A stretch of 24,717 nt of DNA, from IMG/VR virus record IMGVR_UViG_3300033150_000333, positions 1-24,717 of that record. The stretch is one strand, 5' to 3'. The stretch is from a virus. The stretch's first letter is position 1; each line of letters opens with the position of its first letter. This document shows, piece after piece, positions 1,280 through 22,321 of the stretch. The notes beneath the pieces were generated by a model. That model had not been told where the DNA came from, did not search any database, and saw nothing but the letters and a program-made list of their open reading frames with translations. The translations under genes were made by a program, and so were the position numbers.

Positions 1280-2045
1280 AGCCGGCAATGCTGAGAGCTT
1301 CCTGGAGTCGCTTTACGTCATCGCCCCTGGTACCAAACTTCAAGAGCCGGTTAATGTTTAACTCAATGCCTGGCTTTTGATTTTTGGTACCTTTGGCTAT
1401 AAATAATAATGCGGCCGGTTGCGGCCGCTCCCTCCCGTCGCTCGGACGATTAACAATCTTACCGTTCACCAGCGCCTCACTGCTACCACCTCCGTCGGGC
1501 ATGACCGCGAGGTCACAGTCCAAAGACGCCATGTATTCTGCAAGCTCCGGGCCGGTCATACCTCTACCGTAACGGCGCCCGTCAATCGTTACAACAATAA
1601 ATTCGTCACCACGTACACCGTAAGCAGTGCGCGGGTGACGGGTCTTCACCAAGCCATGGAGCCAATCGGTACGGTATCGCAGGTCCACTCTACCGTCTTT
1701 GACAAGCTGCGCAACAACTCCGAAACCCCAAACCATGTCCCACATTCGGTATCCTAAGTATTTGTCCTCTGGCAGACAGAAAATTTTATGCTTCCCACTC
1801 TTATCCTGGTAAAACAAAACGTCGCCCTTATAATCGTAGTGAAGCCCTTCCTTAGTGTATATCGGCTGCACCGGTATTCCCGTATTCAGCGCATATAATA
1901 CCGTCCCGCCGGCTGCATGGCTTGTCCCATACTGGCGTGCAATTCTGGATAACCTACGCCTGCGGCCAACATAAACTAGCTCTGAGCGATACTTATTTAA
2001 CGGTATTTGCCAAATGACCGCATCCCCGTCTCTACGATACTTCAA
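1260..2045 (-). CDS. Phosphodiester glycosidase (NAGPA-like) with truncated peptidoglycan-binding domain
   Basis: 261 residues as read. Residues ~40-215 carry the phosphodiester glycosidase (PF09992-type) signature: R-T-A-Y-G-V, then TIDGRRYGRGMT, then ELAEYMASL, then a P-D-G-G-G-S-S loop and a late R-P-Q-P block. The C-terminus (from about residue 230) begins a PG_binding_1 domain (K-F-G-T-R-G-D-D-V-K-R-L-Q-E-A-L) but stops early at a TAG. The missing half, VDGIVGPQTIGKL, is encoded immediately downstream in the -1 frame (see 1204-1279). A wall- or polysaccharide-directed lysis role is inferred from domain and position. Starts with TTG behind GGGGAGGTGA, overlapping the XhlA-like stop. Confidence 0.82.
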   Translation of the reverse strand: MKYRRDGDAVIWQIPLNKYRSELVYVGRRRRLSRIARQYGTSHAAGGTVLYALNTGIPVQPIYTKEGLHYDYKGDVLFYQDKSGKHKIFCLPEDKYLGYRMWDMVWGFGVVAQLVKDGRVDLRYRTDWLHGLVKTRHPRTAYGVRGDEFIVVTIDGRRYGRGMTGPELAEYMASLDCDLAVMPDGGGSSEALVNGKIVNRPSDGRERPQPAALLFIAKGTKNQKPGIELNINRLLKFGTRGDDVKRLQEALSIAGFKNIIY

Positions 2046-2049
2046 ACGC

Positions 2050-2253
2050 TCACCTCCCCACCGACAAGTTCACAACTAATAAAATAAGCGAGGCAACTAC
2101 CCCGCCCATCAGACCGATGATCCAGAAGTATATTTGATTGACGCGCTTCTCTACCATCTGAATGCTCCCATTCTGCTTTTCCTGCCACCCCTCCAGATTT
2201 TTGACCCGCGCCCTCAAGTCAGACACCTCCCCTACCAGCGTCTCATGGTCCAT
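2050..2253 (-). CDS. xhlA: XhlA-type membrane-associated lysis protein
   Basis: 67 residues. An N-terminal acidic coiled coil (about residues 1-40, L-R-A-R-V-K-N-L-E-G-W) contains the characteristic Q-x-N-G-S-I motif. It is followed by N-Q-I-Y-F-W-I-I-G and a single membrane helix (about 43-63). This matches the haemolysin XhlA family of Gram-positive prophages (PBSX xhlA), which acts with a holin and lysin at the membrane. It is the first gene of the lysis block, behind GGAGGTGGGG at good spacing, and its stop overlaps the next gene's ribosome site. Family assignment is firm; its exact part in lysis here is inferred. Confidence 0.8.
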   Translation of the reverse strand: MDHETLVGEVSDLRARVKNLEGWQEKQNGSIQMVEKRVNQIYFWIIGLMGGVVASLILLVVNLSVGR

Positions 2254-2270
2254 TTACCCCACCTCCGTTC

Positions 2271-2296
2271 AAAATAAAAAACCGCCGTGAGGCGGT
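2271..2296 (-). terminator. Intrinsic terminator between tail-fibre and lysis genes
   Basis: A perfect 6-bp stem ACCGCC/GGCGGT with a GTGA loop is followed on the minus strand by TTTTTATTTT. It lies between the last fibre-cassette gene and the XhlA-like gene. It would reduce read-through into lysis genes unless transcription is antiterminated; the same hairpin-plus-T architecture appears in the terS leader (21860-21882). Confidence 0.7.
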
Positions 2297-2317
2297 ATTA
2301 TATGTACTTTACTGTGC

Positions 2318-2485
2318 CTACTGTGTAATTTTCTTTCCCTTTTTCCTAACTTCCCGTGCCTCAATATCGAAAGTAAAAGTTTCGCCTTTGGCTTTCATTT
2401 TTCCTTGTAGTTCTTTTAATGCTTCCTTAAGAAATTGATTTTCGTCCAAGTTTTCTGGTTTTTTGCTAACCCGTATTACGCTCAT
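2318..2485 (-). CDS. Small basic protein of fibre cassette B (55 aa), unknown
   Basis: 55 residues, starting MSVIRVSKKPENL and ending GKKITQ. It is Lys-rich, with a helical middle (F-L-K-E-A-L-K-E-L-Q-G-K-M-K). The ATG overlaps the stop of the Ig-like gene (ATGA), indicating translational coupling, and AGGTGGT precedes it. No family recognised. In position and character it parallels the 41-residue gene at 5281-5406, which also follows an Ig-like gene and has a V-E-K-L-K-N-E-V helix. No membrane segment or signal peptide. Confidence 0.65.
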   Translation of the reverse strand: MSVIRVSKKPENLDENQFLKEALKELQGKMKAKGETFTFDIEAREVRKKGKKITQ

Positions 2486-2895
2486 TCTACCACCACCTGT
2501 TTTTTTATTCTTCCGTGCCGGCCAGCATCTATTTCAACGGTATAAGTGCCAGGAATTTCAAATATTACAGGCCAAGTACAGGGCATTTGTCCGTGGGCTT
2601 GTTCCTCACCGTCAATATAAAGAACAACTTCAATGCCGTCGCCCTGTTTGTCAGGTGTCAATGCTGAAATATTAACTTGTTCCATTGCCTCGGGGTTCGT
2701 GTTGGAAATTTTGACTTCTACCGGTGTATATGGCACTATATTGTTTCCTTCTAAATAATATCCCAAGGGAAGAACTTTTATCTTTTGCGCTGTTTCCTTC
2801 GTTATTTCAATTTGGCCTTCGTTAAGGGGTACATTAGCTTCTGTCCTCCCCAACGTTGTTATCATGCTGCCCTGCGTTTCAATCCAAAACATCAC
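2482..2895 (-). CDS. Ig-like tail-appendage protein of fibre cassette B
   Basis: 137 residues, not recognised as a named family. The C-terminal ~75 residues look like an Ig-type beta sandwich: alternating beta strands, Y-I-D-G-E-E-Q, then the closing I-P-G-T-Y-T-V-E-I-D strand typical of Ig-like and PKD-like modules. Such domains are common on phage tails and may bind cell-surface sugars. It starts within the end of the fibre gene (4-base overlap) and ends coupled to the 55-residue gene. The 162-residue protein at 5406-5894 ends with the same P-G-x-Y-x-x-E pattern, suggesting functional counterparts. Confidence 0.65.
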   Translation of the reverse strand: MMFWIETQGSMITTLGRTEANVPLNEGQIEITKETAQKIKVLPLGYYLEGNNIVPYTPVEVKISNTNPEAMEQVNISALTPDKQGDGIEVVLYIDGEEQAHGQMPCTWPVIFEIPGTYTVEIDAGRHGRIKKQVVVE

Positions 2896-3680
2896 TCCAC
2901 CTCCCAGTCTATCTGACAGTTAAGCGATTGAGCAGCTGTATCTGTATTTTCGAATTCTATTACCAAATTAGAGCCGCTGATATATATTTCATTTATCCTG
3001 ATTTCCTCATGGCCTGTTGCCTTGCGCCCAAAGCCAGAACTAGAACCAGCAACCGTTATTTTGCCTAGATATGCTCTAGATATAGCAGCGGCTGAAACGT
3101 CAGGACTAGCTCTGTGACCCACGGCTAAGGTTTTAAGATTATCGGTATTGAAAAATACCATAACCCCGTGTATTCCCATATCTGTTTCGGTGGTAGTATA
3201 ATTACTTACAGTTAATTTACCCCTTATTTTATCGCTTCCTATGGCAATTTGCTTCGTCAACGTAGACCCAGCATCAATGCTGTCTGTATAATGTACACTT
3301 CCGCTGGTTATAGTGCCGCCGTCTAACCTATTTTTGTCAGCCGCACTCATAAACCCTGCCACAGAAGTTGTCGCGACTGGGTGTTCAGAAGTCCCACCCT
3401 GGCCACGATGGTCTACGCCTTTAAGTTTATCCGCATCCAGCCCACTCCCTGCGCCGTCTACATTCTTAATTTTGGCTAGTACATCAGCATCCTCATAGTC
3501 GCTTGTTAGAACAAAAACATTCCCTGTTACATTTGAACCATGCACTTGAATATCACTTGTTCCGTCAGTTTTTGCAACCTCAGACTTAACCTCATCGTAC
3601 TGGGTTTCAAGTTTGTTTAAATTTTCAGCACTAATCCCAGGCGCACTGCCTTCAACCCAAGTAGTTTTTGTATACGCCAT
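2892..3680 (-). CDS. Tail-fibre-like protein (cassette B)
   Basis: 262 residues. The N-terminus MAYTKTTWVEGSAPGISAEN followed by L-N-K-L-E resembles that of many Firmicute phage tail fibres and receptor-binding proteins ('TTW.nG..P.inaenLNkiE'). The middle has H-P-V-A-T-T-S-V-A-G-F-M-S-A-A-D-K-x-R-L, a common fibre-shaft motif. The C-terminal ~120 residues are beta-rich and may be the receptor-binding head. It follows the hub and collar-type genes. Receptor specificity cannot be read from sequence. Confidence 0.75.
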   Translation of the reverse strand: MAYTKTTWVEGSAPGISAENLNKLETQYDEVKSEVAKTDGTSDIQVHGSNVTGNVFVLTSDYEDADVLAKIKNVDGAGSGLDADKLKGVDHRGQGGTSEHPVATTSVAGFMSAADKNRLDGGTITSGSVHYTDSIDAGSTLTKQIAIGSDKIRGKLTVSNYTTTETDMGIHGVMVFFNTDNLKTLAVGHRASPDVSAAAISRAYLGKITVAGSSSGFGRKATGHEEIRINEIYISGSNLVIEFENTDTAAQSLNCQIDWEVE

Positions 3681-3688
3681 ACCCTCAC

Positions 3689-4144
3689 CTACCCTATCGT
3701 GTCAGTTCGCTCAATTTGCAAACTTTCAAGTTCCGTTTTGTTCTTGCTGTACAAAACCCGCGCTATCAATACTCCGCTGTCTTTTGTGCTCGTGGCCTCA
3801 GCCCCCGCAAACCAGCCTATTTCTTCAATTTGCTGATTAGCTTCATACGGGGCAATGTAGACTGTTGTTGTCAGTTCTCCCGCTGCGCCCGTTTCCTGTT
3901 TCGTTACCTGCTTCCTGAAGAATTCATTGCCGAGTTTTGTGTCTCCGCTTGCGGGAACGGTATTATCGCTGCCAAATGCAACGTACTTGATGGCGCCATC
4001 AGTCACGGTGCCGTCAAGAAAATTCCGCAACAAGTTCTTTCCCGCGTCGGTTATAAGGTTTTCAAGTTCATCTATCTGCTTCGTCCCGTCTTTAAATATA
4101 GAAATGACGCGGATTTTGCCGCGCCAGGGTATTCGCTCTTTCAT
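3689..4144 (-). CDS. Tail-fibre/collar-type structural protein
   Basis: 151 residues with ATG at 4144. The pattern is that of a widespread fibre-associated domain: L-I-T-D-A-G-K-N-L-L-R-N-F-L, then I-K-Y-V-A-F-G-S-D, then L-G-N-E-F-F-R-K, then I-E-E-I-G-W-F and V-L-I-A-R-V-L-Y-S-K-N-K. This matches proteins with 'NLIvdaGk..iavGtg..L..E..R..EiGlF' spacing near tail fibres. The start is chosen for its GGGGTGA ribosome site and for lying 10 bases after the hub fragment's stop; the frame stays open to 4225 but would then overlap the upstream gene without a ribosome site. Confidence 0.68.
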   Translation of the reverse strand: MKERIPWRGKIRVISIFKDGTKQIDELENLITDAGKNLLRNFLDGTVTDGAIKYVAFGSDNTVPASGDTKLGNEFFRKQVTKQETGAAGELTTTVYIAPYEANQQIEEIGWFAGAEATSTKDSGVLIARVLYSKNKTELESLQIERTDTIG

Positions 4145-4154
4145 ATCGTCACCC

Positions 4155-5255
4155 CTAACATGGATAAAGTGTGCTACTGGGGTACAAATCAACGCTCGGT
4201 ACCGGGCACGCAAACACGTTTTCAACGACGTTTTCTGCCCAGGGCCATGACTCGCTAAATGTTTGAAGCGTAATTAATACCTGATCTTCGCCGATATTTA
4301 TACGCTCAACAAACGCCTGTCCTCTTGTTGCCATTGCGTGGAACATTTTTGCCCATGAACCCTGCTCTGGGCCCTCTGCGGCAACGATATCATACCAAAG
4401 AATATTTTGTTCCTCGGTAATGGTTACAGATTCAATCAGCAATTCATCATTATTGAAATTATGTTCCGGCAGGTTCACAGTTAAAAGTTGGCCTGGTTGC
4501 AAGCCGCTACGCCGCGTCTTAAATCTCAACCTGCGTCCAATGACTGCGTATTTTTGGAGTTTCTTGTTAGCAAGTTGAAAAGCCGCGTCGCGGTTGGTTA
4601 TGTTCGGCTCGTCAGCAACATCCTCAACGTAACCCGTGCCGCCGCTTTCTACTTGTTGTCTGTCTACTATTGCCGCGTTGTCTTCAGATAAAACCACAAT
4701 GTCATACTCACCTTGATAAGTTACTCTTACTTTGTCCGCACTGGTAAGCACAGTTTCGGAGTCGTCCTGGACAATCACGGGGTCACCTTTAGACCAGTAA
4801 AACTGCTTGCCCGTCTCAACTCCTTTAATCCCGACTGTTTGCACTATCCATGTTCCGCCGTTTAAGCTTACTTCGATTGTCGGTACTTTTGCGATTGGGA
4901 AGCCAACTGTAAACGAACGTGCCTCTCCATCTCCTACTTTCGTTTCCGTCTGTGGGTCGGTTATATCGCGCCCGCCTTTAATGTACTGCCGGTTGCGGTA
5001 CTTTGGGTTGCCATGCTCAACGCTAACGCTGTCGCGTTTTATGTCGGTGGCGGTGGCCGTCCAGGGAGCGGCGTTTGATTCTCTGGCTTTGAAATGAAGC
5101 CGCCTATATGGGGTTATTCGCCACCAAAAACCGGATTTTTCGGCAAGTTCGTCAAGTGCTTGGGTTACAGGTACATAATTAAAAACGGCCTCCTTGACAA
5201 TATGGCCGTCTTGAATGTCATTAGATAAATCTGCCCAGGTAGTTATTTTAACCAC
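4155..5255 (-). CDS. Baseplate hub protein, C-terminal fragment of a split gene
   Basis: 366 residues beginning at GTG, directly after an in-frame TAG. Residues ~15-60 (H-I-V-K-E-A-V-F-N-Y-V-P-V, then L-D-E-L-A-E-K-S-G-F-W-W) are the middle of gp27/hub-like tail proteins, where they normally continue an N-terminal half ending 'GDIV.dlV..YL..EGI'. That half is encoded separately at 6466-6873. The C-terminus ends L-Y-P-S-S-T-L-Y-P-C. Both halves plus the 1.2 kb between them run the same direction, so both could be made and associate. The ribosome site (AAAGG or AGGTGG) is poorly spaced, so the start is uncertain. Confidence 0.72.
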   Translation of the reverse strand: MVKITTWADLSNDIQDGHIVKEAVFNYVPVTQALDELAEKSGFWWRITPYRRLHFKARESNAAPWTATATDIKRDSVSVEHGNPKYRNRQYIKGGRDITDPQTETKVGDGEARSFTVGFPIAKVPTIEVSLNGGTWIVQTVGIKGVETGKQFYWSKGDPVIVQDDSETVLTSADKVRVTYQGEYDIVVLSEDNAAIVDRQQVESGGTGYVEDVADEPNITNRDAAFQLANKKLQKYAVIGRRLRFKTRRSGLQPGQLLTVNLPEHNFNNDELLIESVTITEEQNILWYDIVAAEGPEQGSWAKMFHAMATRGQAFVERINIGEDQVLITLQTFSESWPWAENVVENVFACPVPSVDLYPSSTLYPC

Positions 5256-17258: not shown

Positions 17259-18092
17259 TTAATCACCTTCCTCCGGCTTGCGCCTGTATAAGCAGTCACA
17301 CCTACATCCCGGAAACCTCGGCGGCCGCTGGTGGCCGCTGGGAAAAGGCTCGTCAATATCAATCCAACCCGCGTCCTGATTCTCCTCACAGCCGTCAGAA
17401 ACCCGGTCATCCCCCACAGTTAGCCAAGACTTTTCCATAAGAATGCCCTGTTTCTGTATCTCCTTGGCCGCGATCCGGTTGCCTTCCTCGTATGCTTCCG
17501 CGGTCTCGGTTACAGCCACCAGGTGCGCCCTGCTGTCAATGTGCTCCTGCGGCTTACCTACCGCAAATTCCTCGAAATGGCTGGATATTTCCCGGGCCAT
17601 CCGATCGTAGGACCAGCCCTCTTCAGTGCCCTTAATAATAATGGTCTTTATTCGCTTCCGGGTGGTTTCATTGATATTGGTCACTTTTTCAGCAGCATGT
17701 AATTCTAAGTATTCAACCGCCCTGGGATTCTCAAGGTCAAACGCAATATTGACTTTCAAATCAGCTATAGTTTTTAGAGCGGCTGCCTGCAGTGCCTTCT
17801 TTGCGGCTTCTTTTATCGGCTCACGAATTAAATCCGACGTTTCCATAAATACCTGGTCAAAGATAGGGTCCGTTTCATCGTCATCGATTGATTCTTTAAG
17901 CCTGTAAGCCTCTTTAAATCGCGACTTAAATTTTTCGAATCTCTGCAAAAAAAGCTTTCCCTGCTTACGGAAAGCTTTCTGCATTGCTTTTTCAAGCTTT
18001 TTCTCCAATGGCGCCAATGCTCTTCTCTTGCTCGCCCTGTGCATCGCCTCAAGGAAACGGTCCAGGGCATCAAGCAGCTTCTTTGCTTGCAA
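17259..18092 (-). CDS. Minor head protein, Mu F / SPP1 gp7-like
   Basis: 277 residues. A basic helical N-terminal half is followed by the Mu-F domain: W-S-Y-D-R-M-A-R-E-I, then A-V-T-E-T-A-E-A-Y-E-E-G-N, then W-L-T-V-G-D-D-R-V-S-D-G-C. It ends with the diagnostic C-terminal P-P-R-F-P-G-C-R-C-D-C-L-Y block (metal-binding Cys). These proteins attach to the portal and are ejected or guide head assembly. The start overlaps the portal end by 23 bases. Confidence 0.9.
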   Translation of the reverse strand: MQAKKLLDALDRFLEAMHRASKRRALAPLEKKLEKAMQKAFRKQGKLFLQRFEKFKSRFKEAYRLKESIDDDETDPIFDQVFMETSDLIREPIKEAAKKALQAAALKTIADLKVNIAFDLENPRAVEYLELHAAEKVTNINETTRKRIKTIIIKGTEEGWSYDRMAREISSHFEEFAVGKPQEHIDSRAHLVAVTETAEAYEEGNRIAAKEIQKQGILMEKSWLTVGDDRVSDGCEENQDAGWIDIDEPFPSGHQRPPRFPGCRCDCLYRRKPEEGD

Positions 18093-19674
18093 GCTTCCTC
18101 ACCGCCTCCCGGAGATCACGGATGGCATCTACCATCATGGTTTCAATTTCTTGTTCCTCTTCTTTATTCCGGCCCTTCCCTTCTTCATCATCTGGGAATA
18201 AATCTTCGAGTATTTCATCCACGTTTTCTTCACCGAGCGCCAGGAGCAGCATACGGGTGATGCGCTTCAAGTCCAGGGTGCCGGCCGGTGCTTTACCGTC
18301 CAGAGTGGCTGCGCTAACGATAGCGCTTACCTTTTCTTTTACGTCTTTCTCAAGAATGTCCGGGAAGGTAACGTTGACCCTGTCGCTCATGTCGCCTGCT
18401 AGTTCTACATATTCTTCGCCGTATTCGTTTTTAAGAACATTACCCTGCAATTTCCCTCGCGGAGCTCTAACTGATTGCTCAATTACAAACTGGCATATTT
18501 CCTTGAATACACTGGCCCACAGCTGCTGCCTATCTCTAAACATGAGCTCCATCGGCCGTTCCATGCTTTTAGCCGTAGCCAAATTGCCCGTGCTGGGGTC
18601 ACCAAAGTAATGCTCATATATGCCGGTGGCAGCTGACACCATCAAGAGTAGTCTGCGGCCGTCTTCGGCCTTTGTAGTGGCGCCAGCCGTCTTAATCGGT
18701 TCCAATTTCGCCCCTTCGGTACCTATGAAAGTTGAAGCAGTTACGGGTGGCGGATTGGTTTCGGTACCCGTATTGATACCTAATGTGCTCTGTAGTTTAT
18801 CTTTTGCTTTAGCAATACCCTTTTTACCGCCCTTGGCCGTGAGTTGCCATGCGAAACGCGAGTAAGCTTTTACAATGGTGGCCCAGTTCTCCAGGAACTC
18901 CTTGTATGCCCGGGCCCAGTCAATGCCCGCATAAACCTCTGATACGCCAAATTTCATGTCACTGAGCTTGTTCACCGCCACATGATAAACTACCGCATCT
19001 TCCACCTTTTTGCTTGCAATGGTTTTGGCGGGGTTCGGATTTTTCCAATCTGGATAATACGCCGTTCTCTGCCTCACTTCATGCTGTCCGGTGCTTGTAT
19101 TAAACCTGCGCTCCGTCCAGTCGCGTTTATAATAAAGCGGCGTCTTGGCATCCTCCGGATCCGTAATGATATCACTTATCTCATCAACCGGTATGGTCCG
19201 AATCCTCACCCGACCGGTGCTCTTGTTTACAAAAAATACGAAAAAGATATTTCCAAATACCTGTAATTCAGTCTCTTTCACCATCCGCGCCTGGTGTTCG
19301 GTGAGTTCTGCCCGGTTTTTCGGGTCGTCCAGGAATTCTTGAATAACTTCGTTAACGTCCGGATCTTCTGCTTCGATATTCACGCCCTGGCCAAAGACGT
19401 ACTGGGTTTGTGTTAGCACGGCCCGTTTGATGAGCGGGTTCTTTATCCAGTACAGCCGGGCCAGCTGGTTGATTTTGCGCAAGCCCTCCCGAGAAAATTC
19501 TCGCTGGCTTTCAGAGGAAAGCTTCATCCAGCCGGCATCTTCTAATGCCAACTCCAGCTCGGCCAGACGCTCTTGCAGTAGTTCTAAGCTGTCGTCCCGC
19601 TGTTGTATAGATTCCTGCATTTTTTGTATGTCTTCCGAAAGGATTTTCCTGGCTGCTTCTTGAAATATACCCAT
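18070..19674 (-). CDS. Portal protein
   Basis: 534 residues. N-terminal coiled coil (Q-R-D-D-S-L-E-L-L-Q-E-R-L-A-E-L) precedes the portal body: Y-V-F-G-Q-G-V-N-I-E-A, then F-G-N-I-F-F-V-F-F, then R-I-R-T-I-P-V-D-E-I, and S-A-A-T-G-I-Y-E-H-Y-F-G-D-P-S-T-G-N-L-A-T-A. The last two blocks are common to SPP1-type portals. An acidic C-terminal tail follows. It forms the dodecameric DNA channel at the capsid vertex. The ATG shares a CATG with the start of the antisense gene; GGGAGAGAT serves as ribosome site. Confidence 0.9.
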   Translation of the reverse strand: MGIFQEAARKILSEDIQKMQESIQQRDDSLELLQERLAELELALEDAGWMKLSSESQREFSREGLRKINQLARLYWIKNPLIKRAVLTQTQYVFGQGVNIEAEDPDVNEVIQEFLDDPKNRAELTEHQARMVKETELQVFGNIFFVFFVNKSTGRVRIRTIPVDEISDIITDPEDAKTPLYYKRDWTERRFNTSTGQHEVRQRTAYYPDWKNPNPAKTIASKKVEDAVVYHVAVNKLSDMKFGVSEVYAGIDWARAYKEFLENWATIVKAYSRFAWQLTAKGGKKGIAKAKDKLQSTLGINTGTETNPPPVTASTFIGTEGAKLEPIKTAGATTKAEDGRRLLLMVSAATGIYEHYFGDPSTGNLATAKSMERPMELMFRDRQQLWASVFKEICQFVIEQSVRAPRGKLQGNVLKNEYGEEYVELAGDMSDRVNVTFPDILEKDVKEKVSAIVSAATLDGKAPAGTLDLKRITRMLLLALGEENVDEILEDLFPDDEEGKGRNKEEEQEIETMMVDAIRDLREAVRKLASKEAA

Positions 19675-19975
19675 GTATTCATCTCTCCCAAAGGCGGTGA
19701 TTACCTTCCTCTTTCCGGACCCCGTTCGCTATGTTACGAAGGCGGAATATCAACGGATACGTAACACGCGCTGCATGATTTGCTGGCACCAGCCGCCAAA
19801 CTACGTATATAATGCAAAGAAGCACGGATACCAGGGCTGGATCGGCTACCTCTGGCCTCTGTGCGAAAAACATCGCTGGTACGTCCAGCGAATGGGTTGG
19901 TACGAGTTTTTGAAGAAATACAAGATTGATACTACCAACGACCCCGCCGAGTTATTTCCGCACCTAAACCGGTGA
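19673..19975 (+). CDS. Antisense HNH-family-like protein with degenerate active site
   Basis: The only plausible plus-strand gene; it fills the gap between terL and portal and overlaps both ends. F14-P-D-P-V-R resembles the 'FPKPxR' opening of DUF968/HNH-type phage endonucleases, followed by R-C34-x2-C37, then P-L-C64-x2-H67 and M-G-W-Y-E-F-L-K-K-Y-K-I-D, matching 'PLC..HH...H..G...F..kY.iD'. The zinc ligands (C34, C37, C64, H67) are kept, but the catalytic His-His pair is replaced (N43-Y-V-Y46) and the downstream His is lost. The start is unsure: ATG 19673 or GTG 19697, neither with a clear ribosome site. Likely a moron or decayed endonuclease. Confidence 0.62.
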   Translation: MYSSLPKAVITFLFPDPVRYVTKAEYQRIRNTRCMICWHQPPNYVYNAKKHGYQGWIGYLWPLCEKHRWYVQRMGWYEFLKKYKIDTTNDPAELFPHLNR

Positions 19976-21293
19976 AATTTCAACCGGGTCATCGTAGACA
20001 ATAGTTTCTTCTACCGGCACGCTCGCTGTTATCCATTCTGCAAGCGCCAGGGCCATTACGCAGTCGTCATTGTATCCTGGTGCTGCCTCCGGTCGTACTG
20101 TCATTCCTCTTTTTACATTCTGGAAATATCTTAATTCGTCCCTCAAGACAGTTAAACTGGCTGGTAACAATATGCGCTGGTTTTCTATAGTTACTACAAG
20201 GTGGCTTATTAGTTCTGACCTGGTTTTAGAGGTAAAAACAAAAGGTACACAGTTCACTATATGTTCAGAAACCGGATCACCAACTCCCGTAGCGTCCAAA
20301 AAGACCGGTGCCCTATATTTAGCTTGCAGCTGGTTTATCTCTGGGATAATGTCGCTGTAAAGCTTATTCCGATATCGCCTGAACTCGACTACCTTGTGAG
20401 GCACGGTAGTCACATCCAGAACAATAATAACAGTATAGTCCTGATATTTAGCCAGGTCCACCCCAATGCTGTAGATATGATCCTTTTCAGGCTCCTCTTG
20501 CAGCTCATAATCGTCAAATACTTCTTGTAGAACAGACCACTTAAAAACAAAGGTATCATCTTCTACGAACTCAGCCAGGTACTCCACCCTGAAAGCCAGT
20601 TCCGGTATTTCTTTTCTGATTCTGTCTATTTCCTCACGGTCAAGCCTATCATTGTCATATGCCGTAGCATGAAAACTTTTGTAATACCCTGATGAATCAT
20701 TCAAGCCTTCTTGAAAAATTTTATAAAAATAATTCATGCCGTTAGGCGTACTTTCTAGACGAATATCTCCCTGGCGGTCAAGAACCATGGCCCGGATTAC
20801 TTCTTGATATATACGGTCCTTGATAAAAGCTGCTTCTGTGATCGCTACCCCGTTGGCACCTTTGCCGCGCAGGTAAAGCCCGTCTCTCGCCGTGCTTCTA
20901 GCTAGTATCTTGCTGCCGTTTATAAGCTTGATTTCCGGAAAAGGCGAATACTTTATATCTGCAACCAAGGTGTCTAACAAACCGTTTTGCCCGGCTGCCT
21001 CTTCTATCTCGCTAAAGTAAATCCTTGTTTGGTCAATCGAAGGGGCCGTTACATACCACATCTGGTTTTTCTTTGTTGCGCATTCGTGGGTTACATCAAT
21101 CGCCGTCACCAGGCTCTTGCCAAAACGACGGCCGCAGTTTTTTGCGCTAATGCGGCCACCAAGATTTATTGCCTCAGATTGCTTGAGGCCAAGTTCTTTG
21201 TTGAAAAAAGCTTTAGCGAAAAAATACTTTGTCCCGCCTAGACTGCTTTAACGTTTTTTTTAGCTGATTTTTTTGCTTTGGGCTAAGATTCAT
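19964..21293 (-). CDS. terL: Terminase large subunit, frameshifted near the N-terminus
   Basis: From GTG 21109 a 381-residue frame holds the motor and nuclease: I-T-E-A Walker-B-like region, Y-S-I-G-V-D-L-A-K-Y-Q-D RuvC-like Asp, F-L-D-A-T-G-V-G-D-P-V-S, and Y-N-D-D-C-V-M-A-L-A-L-A. The Walker A loop C-G-R-R-F-G-K-S lies upstream of that start in the same frame, which opens after a TAA with no start codon. A proper start, ATG 21293 (M-N-L-S-P-K-Q-K, GGGAGGAAG upstream), lies in another frame ending at 21215. Removing one T from the T6 run at 21224-21219 joins both into a 442-residue TerL. Packaging motor; as read it is broken. Confidence 0.85.
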
Positions 21294-22063: not shown

Positions 22064-22321
22064 TTAAAAGATACAGTAGTAAACTTTACCACAATTAGCA
22101 CATCTACCAACAGCCCCTATAATTCCGTCTTTATCCCCAACTTTCTGTAATTCAACTTTTGTTTGTTTTGCCACGATGTTTAAGTCATAAAGACCGTACT
22201 TAATGGCCTTATCAAACCTGCATTTGCATAAAACCGTTTGTTCCTTTACCGGAATAGCTTTCTCTATTTCTTCATCACTTAAACCAAGTAAGCTAGCCAT
22301 TGCCAATTTAAGTTTTTCCAT
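22064..22321 (-). CDS. Small Cys-containing protein, unknown
   Basis: 85 residues: a helical N-terminus (L-L-G-L-S-D-E-E-I-E-K-A-I), then C32-K-C34 and, near the end, C74-A-N-C77-G-K-V-Y-Y-C83. The paired Cys motifs suggest a zinc ribbon. AGGAGG precedes the ATG. It lies between the late regulator and the late promoter, a slot where some phages carry small control proteins; a regulatory role is only a guess. No known family recognised. Confidence 0.68.
   Translation of the reverse strand: MEKLKLAMASLLGLSDEEIEKAIPVKEQTVLCKCRFDKAIKYGLYDLNIVAKQTKVELQKVGDKDGIIGAVGRCANCGKVYYCIF

Follow-up and report, generated by a model that had tools for sequence, protein, structure and literature searches.

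According to PMC4118853, proteins of the DUF968 family are recombination mediators of the Orf type that carry a fused zinc-finger HNH domain. The group used for comparison here is the C-terminal HNH domain HNHc_6 (PF16784)/DUF968 (PF06147) of phage Orf-like proteins, represented by phi11_14, phiETA Orf20 and the YdfU type in mEp460. Another type of HNH protein, encoded beside terminase genes, is the GVE2 HNH endonuclease (HNHE). Its nicking activity is altered or abolished, according to the metal, in the mutants H93A, N108A and H118A, with H118, directly after the last zinc ligand, being needed for nicking (PMC5304195). With respect to gene arrangement, prophage accessory genes are often antisense to lytic genes and have their own promoter, for example STMMW_20121 of ST64B (PMC7067206).

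The window analysed here is the whole stretch of 24,717 nucleotides of viral DNA (IMG/VR record IMGVR_UViG_3300033150_000333, positions 1-24,717). Reading of its open reading frames (ORFs) confirmed a plus-strand frame of 100 codons at 19673-19975, located, as the earlier note had described, between the minus-strand genes for the large terminase (terL) and the portal protein. This antisense frame lies on the strand opposite to the surrounding late genes and takes up most of the 289-nt gap between terL and portal. Two relatives carry it in addition to the window, L002 (IMG/VR 3300033145_001325) and L014 (2037747002), which gives a family of three members, two of them close. L003 and L004 below are portal relatives. 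The features of the locus are:

18070-19674, minus strand: portal protein gene, with a weak SPP1_portal match and homologous to annotated phage portal proteins

19673-19696, plus strand: upstream in-frame codons 1-8 counted from the ATG, overlying the portal start region and with no counterpart in L014

19675-19690, minus strand: portal ribosome-binding region as read from the sequence, GGGAGAGATGAATAC before the ATG, conserved in L004

19697-19975, plus strand: HNH-derived antisense gene of 92 aa from its preferred start, a GTG that is kept in L002 (92-aa ORF); the L014 protein has 89 aa

19964-19975, no strand assigned: tail-to-tail overlap of 12 nt between the antisense gene and the 3' end of terL, where the other strand encodes SPV-stop

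19964-21109, minus strand: listed part of terL (Terminase_6N, E=2e-9), the frame of which runs on upstream without a start

The earlier note had placed the start of the antisense gene at an ATG sharing CATG with the portal start. Because this ATG at 19673 is ATA in L002 and codons 1-8 lie over the ribosome-binding site of the portal gene, the antisense gene probably starts at the GTG at 19697 instead, and codons 1-8 (19673-19696) are probably untranslated. The alignment of the L014 protein to the window protein begins at about codon 9-11. A search upstream of the GTG revealed no good ribosome-binding site. At its other end the gene is indeed antisense to the terL 3' end, as had been claimed, but to an extent of just 12 nt. 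The same overlap of 12 nt is found in L014, where the terL stop lies at 1392-1394, the antisense gene ends at 1383 and its stop codon is opposite the TerL tail YHDPVTISPI.

Since spurious plus-strand ORFs of similar size (60-219 aa) are numerous in the window, the length of the antisense frame alone is no evidence for a gene. The L002 protein is 92% identical to that of the window, and L014 has a homolog with 51% identity over 80 residues, which is also antisense and sits in the same slot. Comparison of codons 9-97 between window and L002 showed 34 differences, distributed 3/4/27 over the three codon positions (chi-square p ~9e-8), with a dN of 0.033, a dS of 0.868 and a dN/dS of 0.038; 27 changes are synonymous and 7 nonsynonymous. 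The other five frames of the region are interrupted by stops in the same comparison. The earlier note had held that a frame without conservation in relatives, or a dN/dS near 1, would speak against the gene, and neither was found. Conservation in both relatives, the third-position bias and the low dN/dS together show, from a small set of three sequences, that the antisense frame is a real protein-coding gene under purifying selection.

Viral contigs were searched with P0001, A1 and the three-member protein alignment A2, as well as with the L014 protein and the DNA pattern WxGxLWPLCxxH, and only the L002 and L014 contigs matched as further members. The window protein had no match at E<=1 in the phage and plasmid collections, and the single match of the L014 protein in the phage collection (E=8) was judged to be chance. 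Two candidates from the pattern scan of genome contigs were rejected as chance frames. L036 has an upstream in-frame stop and, apart from the pattern itself, shows none of the family motifs. L037 is antisense to a 232-aa ORF, has no CxxC and terminates at a stop; since it was picked by the pattern, its HMM score is inflated.

The motifs that had been read in the window protein, namely FPxPxR, CxxC, PLCxxH and FxxxYxID, are all present in its sequence. A scan with this single sequence matched Pfam HNHc_6 with 13.4 bits against a cut-off of 26.6 (E=0.057; residues 25-86 on profile positions 119-187) and PHROG 398 with E=0.46-0.52; the two libraries thus agree on one HNH C-terminal region, both below threshold. 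We compared the alignment A2 by hhalign with an HNHc_6/DUF968 profile of ten phage sequences (phi11, PL-1, SEsuP-1, D2SVT, phiEf11, Funu2, MT835973, mEp460, phiFN37 and StB12), which gave a score of 29.6 (p 1.9e-4) over 66 columns; 100 column shuffles reached no more than 17.0, and the reversed profile scored 9.8. The aligned features comprise CxxC, LCxxH, the G after it and FxxKYxI. Homology to the HNHc_6/DUF968 nucleases, as the earlier note had proposed, is therefore supported, though not overwhelmingly. NCBIfam, PADLOC and PDB sequence searches as well as a PDB profile search revealed no match for the antisense protein. Two AlphaFold models were of low confidence (mean pLDDT 61.7 and 54.5), and a fold search with one of them found no fold match.

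Common to the antisense protein and the HNHc_6/DUF968 domain are thus, in addition to the profile match, an RCxICx opening, the CxxC...LCxxH zinc site and a helix followed by an F-x-x-K-Y-x-I tail. In contrast to this group, the antisense protein (92-100 aa) consists of the HNH part only, without the Orf-like N-terminal domain; it also lacks the catalytic H positions, has a shorter central loop and contains many invariant tryptophans (W). Whereas genes of the phi11_14 type lie in the replication module, the window gene is antisense in the packaging region, between terL and portal. The residues around the predicted zinc site are:

19772-19783, plus strand: C34-x2-C37, first half of the predicted zinc site, invariant in the three members and aligned to the CxxC of HNHc_6/DUF968

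19862-19873, plus strand: C64-x2-H67, second half of the predicted zinc site, invariant in the three members and aligned to the CxxH of HNHc_6/DUF968

19874-19888, plus strand: R68-W-x-x-Q72, at the positions of the second H of HH and of the last catalytic H in HNHc_6; R68, W69 and Q72 do not vary among the three members

All three members retain the predicted zinc quartet C34-C37-C64-H67, in line with the proposal that the protein retained zinc binding while losing its catalytic histidines. The His-His pair and the last His are missing as stated: alignment of the three members with HNHc_6 showed no counterpart of the DLxH histidine, R68 in place of the second H of HH and Q72 in place of the last H. 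About five residues are absent from the loop that bears NR in HNHc_6, and the only histidine of the L014 protein sits at the predicted zinc-ligand position. With the catalytic positions lost or substituted and this sole histidine a predicted ligand, the protein is very unlikely to have a functional HNH site. The antisense protein thus appears to be a descendant or relative of HNHc_6/DUF968 and not a functional member. R68, W69 and Q72 are invariant together with four further W residues, a pattern that speaks for a new role rather than decay. With the GVE2 HNHE type the protein shares the position next to terL and a predicted zinc site of CxxC and a second ligand pair; however, its gene is on the opposite strand, its ligands are Cys-Cys-Cys-His instead of four Cys, and residues matching H93, N108 and H118 (PMC5304195) are absent.

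Where terL and portal could both be read in portal relatives, the gap between them is mostly below 65 nt, and in several others the slot is occupied by other small genes. L003, with a portal 79% identical, has an empty site with a terL-portal gap of 15 nt and no antisense gene, which is thus dispensable in this lineage. Among the window, L004 and L014, no two TerL proteins align (BLAST, 1e-3), whereas the portals are 70-89% identical; the antisense gene is therefore retained beside the portal as terL is swapped. Since the TerL proteins of L003 and L004 are 65% identical, presence of the antisense gene does not track terL. On the portal tree, presence and absence require two changes, and as most forks are weak, a single gain with loss in L003 is not settled.

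Several observations concern the neighbouring genes. A YYDPVxISPY/V/I-like C-terminal tail is common to otherwise unalignable TerL proteins encoded just upstream of this portal family (window 19964-20000 and L003, L004, L007, L009, L011, L013-L015, L018, L020, L021, L132 and L144), and could possibly be a portal-docking peptide. At 21210-21290 (minus strand) of the window, the terL frame with a Walker-A-like GRRFGKS runs upstream without a start. A frame that does have a start (MKMNLSPKQKNQLKK...RRDKVFFR-stop) is shifted by one base relative to it across a stretch of six T residues; this break may be an assembly error, a mutation or a programmed frameshift. In L014, terL is split over frames (148-1402), its true tail lying outside the frame of the longest ORF, and the portal gene (1695-4451) contains an in-frame, intein-like insertion some 365 residues long (CYSADTEVLTDRG... 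to ...YCFHLPHHIYVTRRNGKIAIQGN) that interrupts it. An ORF of L002 (1374-2138, minus strand) resembles, by eye only, an asparagine-synthase/PP-loop domain (LLSAGVDSALLVALL); it sits where the window, which has no such gene, carries the N-terminal part of a 681-aa ORF. A small ORF of the window (22064-22321, minus strand) with two CxC/CxxC pairs (CKC...CANC) is zinc-ribbon-like and located upstream of a small-terminase-like gene.

Being antisense within the late operon, the gene would need a promoter of its own. In L014 an exact TGGTATAAT faces the antisense ATG from 10-15 nt upstream. No other TGNTATAAT occurs in the 8-kb contig, both strands considered, which suggests that the L014 gene has its own promoter. 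Scans of the window and L004 revealed no plus-strand promoter. The view that the gene is a moron was thus borne out in part, by its presence or absence between close relatives and by the site in L014, but not by a promoter in the window or L004. Similar to prophage morons such as STMMW_20121 (PMC7067206), it is a single gene antisense to the late operon whose presence varies between close relatives, with a promoter-like site in one member. It differs from these in that neither an integrase nor a resolvase came to light in the three gene-bearing records, all of which are possibly fragments. An integrase is present in L013 and L020, which are more distant portal relatives.

Other explanations of the gene were weighed against these data. 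The weak single-sequence matches and the negative fold and PDB profile searches would also suit a zinc-finger protein unrelated to HNH, whose likeness would be confined to the CxxC...CxxH spacing and a trailing helix. Two libraries, however, indicate the same HNH C-terminal region, and the profile alignment includes the KY-I motif past the zinc site and scores above 100 of 100 column shuffles, and we regard this explanation as unlikely. The position next to terL and the wide occurrence of HNH genes beside terminase genes (PMC5304195) could point to a packaging-associated HNH protein aiding the terminase, and a role in packaging cleavage had been considered in the earlier note. Cleavage needs catalysis and the catalytic residues are lost, which makes a packaging nuclease unlikely; moreover, the gene is on the strand opposite to the late operon, is absent from L003, whose terL is L004-like, and is kept beside three unalignable terL genes, leaving a terminase helper of this kind a decidedly unlikely reading.

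Among phage homing endonucleases the HNH type is common, and an HNH gene that lies between other genes and is missing from the site in the close relative L003 might be a degenerate free-standing HNH homing endonuclease, a selfish element in decay. Strong purifying selection, the invariance of the substituted residues themselves and a base composition of the gene that fits each host contig speak against such a relic, which we consider improbable. Regulation of terL or portal by an antisense RNA, in which the open frame would be incidental, has a precedent in STnc6030 of BTP1, an antisense transcript to structural genes that can act in superinfection exclusion (PMC7067206). This is highly improbable here, given changes at the third codon positions of the plus frame, a protein homolog of about 50% identity in L014 and no Rfam match in the region.

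We favour, at a probability of roughly 0.55, a selected antisense moron-like gene for a small zinc-binding protein derived from HNHc_6/DUF968 that does not cut and binds DNA or protein. Judged from sequence features, the protein would fold as an HNH-type zinc core, would be unable to cut DNA and may work by binding DNA or a protein, and the gene would be expressed from its own promoter, independently of the late operon. A full-text search with partial coverage of the literature found no paper on an antisense gene of such kind between terL and portal. Rather doubtful is a nuclease domain turned regulator, in which the dead HNH zinc protein would be expressed separately from the antisense strand, would bind the packaging machinery or DNA and would, for example, block packaging or superinfection. 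If this were true, retention beside the portal despite replacement of terL would imply that the protein works with the portal side.

If the favoured reading of a non-cutting, moron-like gene is true, it would represent a phage nuclease domain that is without catalysis yet under strong selection and needs expression apart from the late operon. HNH-annotated genes near terminases then need not serve packaging cleavage, and catalysis-dead HNH proteins may supply phages with binding proteins.
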